Of a stretch of 64,000 bases of DNA, positions 34,671-43,077 are shown piece after piece. Position 1 is the stretch's first letter. Each line of letters starts with the position of its first letter. The stretch lies in the NCBI GenBank assembly GCA_020444045.1, contig JAHLLS010000006.1, positions 62,001 through 126,000 on the forward strand. The letters run 5' to 3'. A program made the position numbers and the translations under genes. The notes beneath the pieces are model-generated. The model was given only the letters and a program-made list of their open reading frames with translations, was not told the DNA's origin and did not search any database. This DNA comes from Deltaproteobacteria bacterium. Its GTDB lineage: Bacteria > Desulfobacterota > Desulfobacteria > Desulfobacterales > UBA5852.

Positions 34671-35340
34671 TGATTTTCTCCTTTTTGATCGGTTGATAAG
34701 TGCCAACGCATTCCACCCACCCTCTAATCGTTTTCTTCCGATTCCTTTTCCTGGAAGTTAAGATGAACGAACGGCAATGGGTATAAGTCTATTTCCGATT
34801 TTGATGTAGGACCCCGCGGGTAATTTTTGTCAGGATCTGTCCTACGGAAAGACCGCGTAGCCGTATCTGGAAATTTGAACCAACAGGTTTTGACCGAGTG
34901 TCGATAAATTTGTCGGAAGAGGATGTTCAGGCATATCGACCGATTTATTTTGAAAGGCCTACAAATACTGAAAAGAGATAGGTGATCTTGAGGTAATCCG
35001 GTATAAAATTGGTGTTCACTAAAATGTCCTTCAAATTGAAGGCCCATAAAAGAGATAGCCAGAGTATAGCTGCTGACGGCAACATCCTGGGGAGCACCGG
35101 ATTGGCCTTCGCTCCAAACACCCACGCCTAACCTTCATTTGCGGTTGTCCAATGGGTGTCAATTTTGAACCCCTTACTTGTATCCGAATAATATTGAACT
35201 TATGTTGATTCATCGCCCCTTCGATTCTGAACCATGTGGGCCATCTCCCACCAGGCGATCCGCGGGTTCAGCAGCGAAACGACCCGCAACGCGTCATCAC
35301 TCAAATCGCAACGTCAAAAATAGCTGAAAAGGAAAAAACC
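34671..35340. other. 670-base gap with possible degraded sequence
   Basis: No convincing gene. Base composition drops compared with the flanks, and both strands hold only short frames without recognisable motifs. The segment near 35155-35175 (TGTCAATTTTGAACCCC) resembles ends of some IS21-like elements, so an old insertion remnant is possible. The gap separates the stress block from the DUF1254 gene and may mark a recombination boundary. Confidence 0.35.
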
Positions 35341-36957
35341 ATGAATCTGAAATCACTGCTGGCCGCTGCGCTTATAAGCGCGATGGTCCTGTCGAACGCG
35401 TCCGCCCAATCAAGCGACGCGATCCCGCCGTCGATCCTCACCCCGGACGTGGTCGAGACCGGCTTCGGCAAGCTCACCTTCGAGGACGGCGCGCCGACGC
35501 CGGAAACCGCCAAGACCGTGGCCGACTTCCTGATCTTCACCAATGGCCTGAACGTCTACAACAACAGCTTCCGCGGCGCCTCGGCCTACGCGATCCAGAA
35601 AGGTTTCCAAAACATCGGCGCGGCGGACAACTCGGTCGTGATCTTCTCGGATCTGATGGACTCGAGCTCGCTCTTCCTGACCGCCAACGCAGACACCGTC
35701 TATTATCTTTCCGTCGTCGACCTGAGCAAGGGGCCGATGGTGATCGAACAGCCGCCGAAGAGCGTGGGCACCATCAACGACATGTGGTTCTCGTGGGTCA
35801 TCGACATCGGATTCCCGGGACCCGATCGCGGCGAAGGCGGCAAGTACCTGATCGTGCCTCCCGGTTACGACGGGCTGCTCCCGGACAGCGGCTTCCACGT
35901 CGCGCATTCCAAGACCAACCGGATCCTCTACGCGGCCCGCGCCTACCTGGTGGACAACGACCCACAGCCGGCCGTCGCCATGATCAAAAAGACCATGAAG
36001 ATCTATCCCTACACACCGGGCGGCTACGGCACCAGCATCGCCACGGCGCTCGAAGGCGGGGTGCGCCTTGAACAGAATCCGACGGTTCCCGAGACCAAGT
36101 TCGTCGAGGCCAGCGGTAAGGTGATGAACACGATCCCGCCCAGCGACTACACCTTCTTCGAAATGATCAACGCGAACGTCCAGCAGGAGCCGGCCACCAG
36201 CTATGACGTCGAACTCGCCGGCCAGCTCGCTGCCATCGGCATCGTCAAGGGAAAACCTTTCAAGCCGGACGCCAACACGAAGCGGCTTCTGACCGACGCG
36301 GCGAAGTTCGGCAACGCCACCGGCCGTGTCCTGAACTGGCGCTTCGGCGGCACACACCCCGATTGGTTTTACTACAAGGACTCAATGTGGGGTAACATGC
36401 TGTGGGAAGGCGGCGCCTTTTTCGAGACGCCACCACCGATGGTCACCAAGGAAGGCACCTTCAAGCCCCTACCCCCGACCGGCGCGCGCACCCTCGATTC
36501 GCGGACGGCCTTTTACTTCGGCTACACCCTGGACTCCCCCGGCATGATCATGCGCGTTCCCAAGGTCGGTTCGCAGTATCTGATGGGTTTCCTGGATGCG
36601 GACGGCAATCCCTACGACGGCGGCAAGACATACAAGGTCGTCCTTCCGAAGGACATCCCGGCCGCCGCGTTCTGGTCGTTCACCCTCTATGACAACCAGT
36701 CCCGATCGATGCTCGCCACGCCGCAACGCTACCCGCGCGCCGGCAGCCAGAGCTATCCGTCGCCCGCCGCCGTGGCGAGTGCCGATGGCTCCACGACCAT
36801 CTACTTCGGCCCCGAACAGCCAAAAGGGGTGGAACGCGGCAACTGGATCCAGACGATGCCCGGCAAGGGTTGGTTCACCCTCCTGCGCCTCTACAGTCCG
36901 CTGGAAACCTTCTTCACGAAGGAATGGCGGCCAAGCGAGATCGAGCTGGTGAAGTGA
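35341..36957 (+). CDS. Exported DUF1254/DUF1214 protein
   Basis: A 538-residue protein with a signal peptide (MNLKSLLAAALISAMVLSNASAQ, cut after ASA). The first half (FTNGLNVYNNSFRGASAYAIQKG, NADTVYYLSVVDLSKGPMVIE) matches DUF1254, and the C-terminal half (YDNQSRSMLATPQRYPRAGSQ, PEQPKGVERGNWIQTMPGKGW) matches DUF1214. These two-domain proteins are widespread in aerobic bacteria; their function is unknown, and they sit in the periplasm. AAAAGGAAAAAACC precedes the ATG. Synonymous choices lean to C/G-ending codons more than in neighbours, and it follows a composition-shifted gap, so recent acquisition is possible. Confidence 0.85.
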   Translation: MNLKSLLAAALISAMVLSNASAQSSDAIPPSILTPDVVETGFGKLTFEDGAPTPETAKTVADFLIFTNGLNVYNNSFRGASAYAIQKGFQNIGAADNSVVIFSDLMDSSSLFLTANADTVYYLSVVDLSKGPMVIEQPPKSVGTINDMWFSWVIDIGFPGPDRGEGGKYLIVPPGYDGLLPDSGFHVAHSKTNRILYAARAYLVDNDPQPAVAMIKKTMKIYPYTPGGYGTSIATALEGGVRLEQNPTVPETKFVEASGKVMNTIPPSDYTFFEMINANVQQEPATSYDVELAGQLAAIGIVKGKPFKPDANTKRLLTDAAKFGNATGRVLNWRFGGTHPDWFYYKDSMWGNMLWEGGAFFETPPPMVTKEGTFKPLPPTGARTLDSRTAFYFGYTLDSPGMIMRVPKVGSQYLMGFLDADGNPYDGGKTYKVVLPKDIPAAAFWSFTLYDNQSRSMLATPQRYPRAGSQSYPSPAAVASADGSTTIYFGPEQPKGVERGNWIQTMPGKGWFTLLRLYSPLETFFTKEWRPSEIELVK

Positions 36958-38590: not shown

Positions 38591-40574
38591 TCAGGCCGCG
38601 TGGGCCTCACCCTCCGGCGAAACCCAGATGGCCAGTCGTTCGTCCTCCTGAAGGACATGGTCGATATCCAGAAGCATCCGGATACCATTTTCGGCTTTGG
38701 CCATGGCAAGAATATGACGGGTGTCGATGCGGGCCCCGAAGGTCGGCGTGGGATCGATATGGCTGGAACGGATGGTCAGTACTTCGGAAACCGAATCCAC
38801 GGCCACACCGATACACATGGCCTGCCCGGCATAATCGGATTCCAGGATCACGATGCAGCTGCGGTCGCCGGAGGCAGGTGCCCCCAGGCCGAACTTGACC
38901 CGCAGGTCGATGACCGGAATGGTGCGGCCCCGCAGACTGATCACCCCGCGGATATAGGGCGGTGCCTGGGGAATGCTGCGAACGGGCAGCATGCCGATGA
39001 TTTCCTTGATGCGCAAAATGTCGATGCCGTATTGCTGGCCGTCCAGACTGAAGGTCAGGTACTTGCCCTCCAGGTTCAGCATGGATTTGTCTTCACCGTG
39101 CGCCACCTGGGCGTAGCGGGTGAGCAGGTCGACCGCGGTTTGATCGGCAATATGCAGATAGCCCGGCAGGTTGCTGGACACCCGGTCCTTGCAGGCCGCA
39201 TCGGCAAACCGGGTATCGATGAACGCCTCCAAGTCCACCGGCGTGCCGATACGCATGCGCTTGACCATGTAATCGTTCATGGTACGCAAATCTTCGATGG
39301 CCGGGTACAAGTCGCCGGTTTTGATGCCCTTCACCTCACTCAGCACGTTTTTTAGCACCGGTACTTTCAAGCCAAGCGTCTTGTTCGGATCCAGGAACGC
39401 CACCCCGATCTCGGCCGCCATTTCCGGTTTCTGGTCGATAAACTTGCCCGCCGTGACCAGCATCTCGGTAAATTCGTAGACCGCCTCGGTGTGGGGTTCG
39501 ATAAAGTCATCCCGTATGGTGACCACGCAACAGGGGTGGTTTTCCCACAGCTCGCTGCTCAGGAACTGCAGGTCGGCCGCTCCCGAAGCAATCGCTTTGG
39601 TTCCCAGAGGCTCGGCCACCATAAACCCCGCCGCGGCATTGTTGCTCTGCATGAACTCCTGCATCTTGATGGGCGCCACCACTTCGAAATTGACGTCGCT
39701 CTGTCCTTCGCCCACCATGCCGGGGGTGAGACCGATGCTGCTGAAAAACAGGTGGGCCAGCATGTGGTGCACGGACATCTTGTGCGGAATGTAAAAGGAC
39801 TGGGAACGGAAATAGTCGGCATAGGGTTCGGCATACCCTTCCCGGTTGCTGCGAACGAAAATGCTGCCGTTCTTGTGGGCCAGAAGGGTCAGCTTGATCG
39901 GCACGCCAAAATTGTAAAGATCCATGGCAATCGGCGCCAGGATCAGGGCGGCGTCCACCGCCCCTTTTTCCAGGGCGTCCTGGACGGGATTCCACCCCGG
40001 CATGCAAACGGTTTCCAGCTCGAAATGCTGGGGCTGCAGGTCGCCCTTCGCGATCAGGTGCTTCAACACTCCCAGAATGAGATGGTCCGTAATCTGGATG
40101 TGGGCCACTTTCAGTTTCACCCGGCCGTTGATTTTTTCACGCGGCCCTCGCGTTTGACCCGGCGGTTCGTTTCCAGCGCTGACCAAACCGAGGGCTTCGT
40201 CGATCTTGCTTTTCAATTCCGCTTCGTTGAAGGGCTTGGCCACGAAAGCGTTGACCCCGGCATCCACGGCTTTTTTCTCCTGGGCCTTGTCGCCCTCCCT
40301 GGCCGGTAGCCATCAAGAAAGGGATCGGTGCCGTGGCGGTGTTGCCCTTGACCCAGCAGAGCAGTTCGTAACCGTCCTTGTTGGGCATGTTCCAGTCGCT
40401 GATGATCAGGTCGACCTTGCGGTCCCCCTGGAGGATGCCAATGGCTTGGTTCCCGTCCACCGCTTCGACGATACCGTCAAACCCCAGCGATTTAAGGGTC
40501 TTGATTTCAATTTTCCGCATGACTGCGGTGTCTTCAACCAAAAGGATCTGGACATTTTTTGGATCAAAGGCCAT
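38591..40574 (-). pseudogene. Receiver - NrtA-like substrate-binding - CheW fusion, one-base frameshift
   Basis: Two overlapping frames rejoin into one 660-residue protein if one base is removed at about 40301-40306, in the minus-strand run ACCGGCC. Residues 1-125 are a receiver (ILLVEDTAVMRK; Asp60 in ISDWNMP; after correction FVAKPFNEAEL). Residues ~150-470 resemble NrtA/SsuA-type substrate-binding proteins (KLKVAHIQITDHLILGVLKH, VDAALILAPIAMDLYN). Residues ~505-645 are a CheW domain (YLTFSLDGQQYGIDI, YIRGVISLRGRTIPVIDLR). There is no signal peptide, so the binding domain would be cytoplasmic. Gene decay, sequencing error or programmed frameshift are all possible; the rest of the frame is well kept. 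Confidence 0.75.
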
Positions 40575-41832: not shown

Positions 41833-41958
41833 CCCTTGCCGTGCGATCCTATCTTGACGCCTTGGCAGAGCTCGTCTAAGTTAGAGGGCATTTTTCAGAG
41901 TGGGGGCTCGATCCGACCCCGCACCTTTTTCCTTGTCACTCAATCTAAGGAGTTCCCC

Positions 41959-43077
41959 ATGAATCTCAAAAAGAACCTTCGTATCGGCGTTCTCATGATC
42001 ATTGCCCTCGTGGGGCTCGCCATGGTGAGTGGTGTCCGGACCGCCGATGCCGCATCCAAAAAACTCAAAGTCGCCTTCGCCCTGCTGTGGACCATTGACG
42101 ACCAGGGGTGGACCACGGCCCACTACCACGGCATCGAGTACCTCAAGGCCAAAATGGGCGACCAGATCGAAATCAGCTACACCGAAAAAGTCCTGGCGGC
42201 CGATGCCGAGCGGGTTTTCCGCAATTACGCCCAGCAGGGTTACGATATCATCTTCGGCACCACCTTCGAACACATGGACCCCATGCTCAACGTGGCCAAA
42301 GATTACCCGGATATCGCTTTCGAACACTGCTCCGGCTTCAAGACCGGCCCCAACATGGGCAACTACTTCGCCCGCATGTACCAGGGCGAATACCTGGCCG
42401 GCTACATGGCCGGGCTCATGGGCTATAAAAACGTGGGCACCGTGGCCACCAACCCGATTCCCGAACCCATCCGTGGCATCAACGCCTTTACCATCGGGCT
42501 GCACAAAGGGCTCAAGGAAGCCGGCCAAGCGTTTGAGGCCGACAAAGCCAACACCGTGGTCTGGCTCAAGGCCTGGCGTGATCCCATCAACGAAACGACC
42601 CTGGTCGAAACGCTGGTGGCCCGCAAACACGACCTGATTCGCCAGATGGCCGATACACCCGACAGTTCGGTGGCCGCCTGTGCCGCCGGCGTTCCGGCCA
42701 TCGGCTACGGCGAAGACGCGGCCCGCTACGGGGCCGACTGCGCCCTGCTGTCTTCGGTCTGGAACTGGGGACCGATCTACGTGGACAAGGTTCAACAGGT
42801 CATGGACGGTACCTGGAAAGCCGGTGAATACTGGGGCGGCTTCGACAAAAACAATATCGTGCTGAGCGACTTCAATGAGGCGGTGCCTGATGCCGTGCGG
42901 CAAAAAGTGCTGGCCGAAAAGAAAAAACTCGCAGCGGGGCAGGATGATATTTTTGCAGGCCCGCTCTACGACCAGAAGGGCACCCTCATGATCCCCGAGG
43001 GGCAAAAAGCTTCCGACAAAGATCTTCTCACCATGGGCTGGCTGGTGAAAGGCGTTCGCGGCAGTATTCCGCAATAA
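41959..43077 (+). CDS. BMP-family ABC transporter substrate-binding protein
   Basis: A 372-residue periplasmic binding protein with a signal peptide (MNLKKNLRIGVLMIIALVGLAMVSG..ADAA). The BMP/PnrA features are KVAFALLWTIDDQGWTTAHYHGIEYL, FGTTFEHMDPMLNVAKDYPDIAFEH and YFARMYQGEYLAGYMAG. Such proteins bind purine nucleosides or related compounds. TAAGGAG precedes the ATG at 41959. It is the first gene of the transporter unit, separated from the rest by a 410-base gap that holds the second MITE copy. Confidence 0.88.
   Translation: MNLKKNLRIGVLMIIALVGLAMVSGVRTADAASKKLKVAFALLWTIDDQGWTTAHYHGIEYLKAKMGDQIEISYTEKVLAADAERVFRNYAQQGYDIIFGTTFEHMDPMLNVAKDYPDIAFEHCSGFKTGPNMGNYFARMYQGEYLAGYMAGLMGYKNVGTVATNPIPEPIRGINAFTIGLHKGLKEAGQAFEADKANTVVWLKAWRDPINETTLVETLVARKHDLIRQMADTPDSSVAACAAGVPAIGYGEDAARYGADCALLSSVWNWGPIYVDKVQQVMDGTWKAGEYWGGFDKNNIVLSDFNEAVPDAVRQKVLAEKKKLAAGQDDIFAGPLYDQKGTLMIPEGQKASDKDLLTMGWLVKGVRGSIPQ

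Follow-up and report, generated by a model that had tools for sequence, protein, structure and literature searches.

Binding-protein domains of the NMT1/NrtA type usually work outside the cell. What would such a domain do inside it, placed between a CheY-like receiver (REC) and CheW? The question is raised by a gene at positions 40574-38591 on the minus strand of the window, the 64,000-nucleotide stretch of a deltaproteobacterial contig that we analyzed, which belongs to a 5.71-Mb genome assembly of 73 contigs (completeness 97.3%, contamination 6.2%). Pfam identified Response_reg, NMT1_2 and CheW in that order, bearing out the three domains that an earlier sequence-only reading of this DNA had recognized, and the receiver Asp60 was found where that reading had placed it (Table 1). 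The NMT1_2 match scored 89.9 bits against a Pfam gathering cut-off of 24.7, and the NCBIfam model closest to the receiver was CheY (PRK10610, 7.8e-20). Elsewhere in the window, a Bmp/PnrA-like binding protein is encoded at 41836-43077 on the plus strand, with further co-directional ORFs behind it up to about 47755, and a DUF1254/DUF1214 protein is encoded at 35236-36957, also on the plus strand.

Table 1. Positions in the window of the features of the REC-NMT1-CheW gene.
Feature	Position	Strand	Basis
Receiver, first part, CheY-like, residues 1-92 with E14, D15 and D60	40299..40574	-	Pfam Response_reg, 4e-13
Codon of phospho-acceptor D60	about 40395-40397	-	Invariant residue
Frame break in the receiver, past T90 and before K112; a net +4 bases compared with every relative	40290..40303	-	ORFs in different frames; relatives continuous
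Receiver remainder with K112, second frame	40184..40294	-	Response_reg end against residues 4-34 of the downstream piece; continuity in relatives
NMT1_2 (PF13379), type-2 periplasmic-binding-protein domain, cytoplasmic	39179..40132	-	Pfam, 3e-25
HPCC motif, candidate ligand/metal site	39527..39538	-	Conservation; Cys-Cys common to 3un6
CheW domain (PF01584)	38642..39064	-	Pfam, 3.3e-32; PDB CheW 2ho9, 9.8e-23
NMT1-CheW ORF from internal GTG	38591..40267	-	ORF listing

The sequence-only reading had treated the gene as a single reading path of 660 residues, which proved wrong for this copy. The REC ORF (40574-40137) and the NMT1-CheW ORF lie in two different frames, the whole span of 1984 bases is no multiple of 3, and the active-receiver residues are divided between the frames; the receiver remainder, scored alone, reached only E 0.046 against the end of Response_reg. 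T90 and K112 are 22 residues apart in 64 of 64 aligned relatives, leaving the net +4 bases near 40,300 without parallel, and all 15 full-length relatives from the same genus and order (L005-L019) have one open frame. A programmed frameshift was considered but set aside because the break is absent from every aligned relative. In a codon comparison of one pair, the window copy and its nearest relative (83% identical across the 570 residues searched), dN/dS was 0.12 before the break and 0.08 after it, with 0.06 for NMT1 and 0.29 for CheW, the least constrained part in that pair. Purifying selection on both sides indicates that the break is either recent or an assembly error, so the window copy appears to have a freshly broken receiver or to be misassembled. 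The ORF that starts at the internal GTG could yield a putative NMT1-CheW protein without the greater part of the receiver.

Beyond the window, a scan of named genomes returned 221 NMT1-domain relatives, and 76 of the best 80 loci encode REC-NMT1-CheW in one ORF, the remaining four (L075, L091, L092 and L094) being REC-NMT1 only. REC-NMT1-CheW is thus a conserved family and no one-off, recurring far beyond chance. Among the matches listed from 96 searched relatives of the host, the window's genome included, at least 17 genomes carry the full architecture, and in an even sample of the phylum NMT1-domain matches at E 1e-40 occurred in 25 of 395 genomes. By record title, carriers include Desulfobacterota or 'Deltaproteobacteria', Ignavibacteria with Melioribacter, Chloroflexi/Anaerolineae, KSB1, Latescibacterota and Thiotrichales; most records are metagenome assemblies, in which an isolated unexpected title may reflect a binning error. 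Three carriers are isolates: Desulfonema magnum, Desulfatibacillum alkenivorans and Desulfamplus magnetovallimortis. The viral contigs scanned contained no relative. The sequence-only reading had held that its case would fall if the architecture proved common in CheV annotations; common it is, but it forms a separate family in the order REC-SBP-CheW, unlike CheV. The Desulfamplus protein (L110, 9527-11719) has a long, repetitive, charged linker after its NMT1 domain, and a linker of the same kind follows NMT1 in L022 (1231-3057, G052), reaching the contig end.

Both signaling domains retain their key residues across the family. The active-receiver set E14, D15, D60, T90 and K112 is invariant in 64 of 64 relatives, as are G502, E523, G542 and R547 of CheW, and the phospho-accepting Asp is present in all 103 REC domains checked. 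Partners are also at hand: the sequence-only reading had suggested looking for cheA and mcp genes, and the window's genome indeed encodes one CheA, four MCPs, three other CheW proteins and a flagellar che cluster, in which CheA shares its contig with FliG and has CheR, CheD, HDOD, a CheY-type receiver, CheX and CheB as neighbors. Across the 96 relatives, CheA was found in 17 of 17 recognized carrier genomes, compared to 54 of 79 others. The cheA and cheR genes lie immediately upstream of the focal gene in L083 and L103, and cheA lies near it in L038 and L110, as judged from gene clusters identified by Pfam on one representative each.

In the stored flanks of the best 80 loci we found no general conserved operon partner. 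Neighbor clusters, named by Pfam on one representative each, comprised PAS-histidine kinases (19), HDOD (11), NitT/TauT-kind ABC ATPases (10), rhodanese (10), DUF169 (7) and ABC permeases (5), and because neighbors vary this widely no single ligand story emerges from them. The seven DUF169 loci (L035, L036, L038, L059, L066, L070 and L096) have unrelated titles, and L059, L066, L070 and L096 also have nearby an aminotransferase with a DsrC-like stretch (Pfam on the L096 copies only).

We modeled the window NMT1 domain (pLDDT 94) and found the type-2 periplasmic-binding-protein fold that had been expected for the middle of this cytoplasmic protein. The closest solved fold is 3un6, a Staphylococcus aureus substrate-binding protein (SBP) that is zinc-bound in its structure (Z 36.3 over 289 residues, 2.2 A), followed by CmpA (Z 35.6), NrtA (35.4) and the regulatory domain of CmpC (34.2). 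A full-length relative, L034, was modeled with pLDDT 86.7 and pTM 0.76. Consistent with the sequence-only reading, residues 1-45 of 64 relatives contained no signal peptide, the 19-residue hydropathy window peaking there at 1.08. Windows above 1.6 occur somewhere in 24 of the 64, with peaks near residues 206 and 570 that fall within the modeled NMT1 and CheW domains.

The conserved residues of this domain point away from the ligand first proposed for it. D16, W47, H199, C201 and C202, the last three within an HPCC motif, are invariant in 119 of 119 NMT1 domain rows; H86 is kept in 118, and E174 is replaced by Gln in six. At position 117 every one of the 103 REC-fused rows has His, the seven free-standing proteins have Tyr and the nine exported ones Ser, Tyr or Ala. 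Opposite PKKV of NrtC and PGKV of CmpC, both in cytoplasmic domains, the REC-NMT1-CheW family reads HPCCV, with Cys at the Lys position in 64 of 64 relatives; the Cys-Cys pair, which stands for Lys-Lys of NrtC and Gly-Lys of CmpC, is common to 3un6. The Lys of the W..HP.K motif, presumably the nitrate-site Lys269 of NrtA, is likewise Cys here, which separates the family from the nitrate-binding NrtA and NasS proteins. Since the CmpC/NrtC Lys is an invariant Cys, a nitrate or bicarbonate ligand, as suggested by the sequence-only reading, is unlikely. A sulfonate, which that reading also named, may still be the ligand. SaoX/SaoB, described as selenoprotein ABC importers in the accessible part of PMC13188914, were rejected as a match, the window protein scoring 15.8 of 300 bits for SaoX.

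Exported relatives of the domain suggest what its ligand may be. We examined 26 places (20 plus 6) and obtained a usable SBP call in 24, seven of which have the Cys pair. CooS, the Ni-CO-dehydrogenase (CODH), adjoins the SBP in four of the seven (L177, L178, L179 and L198, with the CODH family confirmed) and in none of the 17 without the pair. L177 and L178 are near-identical loci of the same genus, and no fewer than four of the 20 stretches fetched are short or truncated where a contig ends, so that CooS misses there count less. In L175 and L176, Mrp/NADH-type antiporter genes take the place of CooS (family check on L175). Exported relatives also lie 3' of the focal gene in L045-L047, L051 and L053, with the Cys pair observed in L045, L047, L051 and L053. 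None of the REC-NMT1-CheW loci showed CooS in its stored flanks, and a search of the window's genome for a close exported sibling gave no match at 1e-50. In a separate locus, L180 (5634-12657, G111), an exported Cys-pair NMT1 protein is encoded in a che operon, flanked by a double-CheW protein and a 4HB chemoreceptor. In the portion of Inoue et al. available to us (PMC6344411), NitT/TauT transporters accompany clade B Ni-CODH, their SBP is homologous to 3UN6 and metal import is proposed; the available part of a 2026 study (PMC13056359) gives 64% of clade B operons with ABC-transporter genes. The invariant Cys/His residues, the CooS context and what we have of PMC6344411 lead us to put a transition metal or metal-linked compound first, as a best guess from sequence patterns.

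The REC-NMT1 pair also occurs with other outputs. From the search of 96 relatives we fetched 20 further places, where Pfam was run on 13 ORFs longer than 700 residues. Seven join REC-NMT1 to an RsbW-like ATPase (HATPase_c_2) and STAS (L118, L120 and L122-L126) and two to a SpoIIE phosphatase (L119 and L121), both partner-switching outputs. One (L114, 1-3213, G080) adds the dimerization, ATPase and two CheW stretches of a CheA-like kinase, in which Pfam found no Hpt domain; one (L116, 2793-6407, G029) is a tandem REC-NMT1-REC-NMT1-CheW in a single 1205-residue ORF; one (L117) has a DUF3369 histidine kinase ahead of REC-NMT1; and the last (L115) is unassigned, with a tail in which Pfam found no known domain. 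NMT1 occurs as a free-standing protein as well, about 310 residues long and with no export signal pattern. REC-NMT1 thus looks like a cytoplasmic sensor cassette of general use: because it is plugged into CheA, SpoIIE, RsbW/STAS and histidine kinase proteins, ligand sensing would be the constant part and the output the variable one. In a 119-row tree, one branch (99*) sets off the exported relatives and another (100*) the full set of REC-fused rows, the labels 'exported' and 'alone' coming from a twin-arginine pattern search and no signal-peptide program. An order from exported through free-standing to REC-fused is only suggestive, as this quickly built tree is midpoint-rooted and its branches are long where they meet the exported group.

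Could the binding domain be something other than a sensor of a metal-type ligand? If it were a mere scaffold, or had lost its ligand, the protein would be a CheV-like adaptor with a phosphate-sink receiver. The make-up of CheW plus REC is that of CheV, for which the accessible text of PMC4742279 proposes an adaptor and phosphate-sink role, and the invariant REC residues would suit it. A scaffold would not lead one to expect five invariant residues in 119 NMT1 rows, the strongest constraint of any part of the window copy, or an NMT1 domain that is kept where the output is SpoIIE or STAS, and with the domain order also unlike that of CheV we consider such an adaptor improbable. We see equally little chance that the protein senses an anion (nitrate, bicarbonate or sulfonate) in the cytoplasm much as NasS does, a protein that the available portion of PMC3795266 presents as an NrtA-like cytoplasmic nitrate sensor acting on NasT. 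The fold is near NrtA and CmpA, and the window protein matches SsuA_fam at 5.5e-13, yet that match reaches 48.8 of 163.5 bits, far under the cut-off, the nearest solved structure is zinc-bound and the Lys of CmpC/NrtC is Cys here.

Some cytoplasmic proteins of this fold are enzymes, among them Thi5, MqnA/D and DszB. These appear in our fold list, and the invariant Cys-Cys/His set could be catalytic, but their Z scores of about 17-24 are far below those of transporter-type binding proteins and every fusion partner is a signaling module, making an enzyme very improbable. A different doubt concerns the window copy itself, which may be a decaying gene that is functionless in this organism; this would be compatible with a family that works elsewhere. 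Besides the break inside REC, decay would fit our finding no full-length copy in the same-genus genomes G001 and G004, both incomplete. Selection on either side of the break, 558 codons with no further stop or break and the chance that the assembly is wrong speak against it, and we regard decay as a serious possibility that falls somewhat short of an even chance.

Taking the evidence jointly, we favor, with a probability of roughly 0.6, the reading that REC-NMT1-CheW is a family of soluble, array-docked sensors, in which the binding domain senses an intracellular ligand, tentatively a soft transition metal and not nitrate, and the receiver tunes the output. The CheW part would dock the protein in the CheA-chemoreceptor array, and the binding domain would close on a small intracellular ligand, thereby shifting CheA activity through neighboring CheW/P5 contacts. 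Phosphorylated by CheA or another kinase, the receiver may then tune or reset this output, as proposed for the REC of CheV. More tentatively, the ligand could be an ion of a soft transition metal, such as Ni2+ or Zn2+, or a metal-linked compound, held by the Cys-Cys/His set, as its conservation suggests. Through such proteins, swimming probably responds in many anaerobes to something inside the cell.

A wider reading is that REC-NMT1 is an undescribed, widespread cytoplasmic cassette sensing metal or CO metabolism, derived from the SBP of a CODH-linked ABC importer by loss of the export signal and fused into chemotaxis arrays, CheA and partner-switching phosphatase/kinase systems. We hold it doubtful though possible; were it true, anaerobes would use their intracellular metal status to direct both movement and regulation. 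That SpoIIE/STAS and CheA outputs both carry the cassette suggests that a single intracellular cue serves movement and stress-type regulation. The family also bears on the role of the NitT/TauT-type transporters adjoining clade B Ni-CODH. The array-docked sensor reading, if true, would add a second class of CheW-fused sensors after CheWS (as far as the accessible text of PMC10653840 goes), more widespread and built on a well-understood ligand-binding fold, so that intracellular sensing through CheW would be directly testable in cultured sulfate reducers.

How does the family compare with known systems? CheV consists of CheW followed by REC, with no further domain. REC-NMT1-CheW resembles it in holding CheW and a CheY-like receiver in one soluble protein, and differs in that REC comes first and a 320-residue binding domain, which CheV lacks, stands between; with this architecture in 76 of the best 80 loci, the family lies outside CheV. 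We found no description of REC-NMT1-CheW in the open-license literature, of which PMC10653840, accessible in part, has a supplementary figure of 30 unreported CheW architectures that may show it. The accessible part of the same 2023 paper calls CheWS of Treponema denticola, a fusion of CheW with a CheR-like SAM sensor, the first characterized CheW-fused sensor. CheWS likewise joins CheW to a cytoplasmic ligand-binding domain, but by that account its domain is CheR-like, its ligand is SAM, it has no receiver and it is described in spirochetes; Pfam found no CheR match in the window protein, whose middle domain has the periplasmic-binding-protein fold. In the broad sense the window protein has the make-up of a CheW-fused sensor, its ligand-binding role being predicted from sequence and model. 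NasS-NasT, from what is available of its description, offers an NrtA-like cytoplasmic binding protein that controls a partner regulator, whereas there two proteins are involved, NasT binds RNA and NasS keeps the nitrate residues, one of which, the Lys, is Cys here. The C-terminal domains of NrtC and CmpC are cytoplasmic NrtA-like regulators as well (Z 32.5-34.2), but belong to an ABC ATPase and have Lys where REC-NMT1-CheW has Cys. Nearest among solved relatives, 3UN6 and the SBPs of clade B Ni-CODH have the Cys-Cys pair in common with the family and differ in belonging to ABC importers and in being exported at the loci examined. REC-NMT1-CheW would work like a blend of CheV, CheWS and NasS, yet belongs to none of the three.
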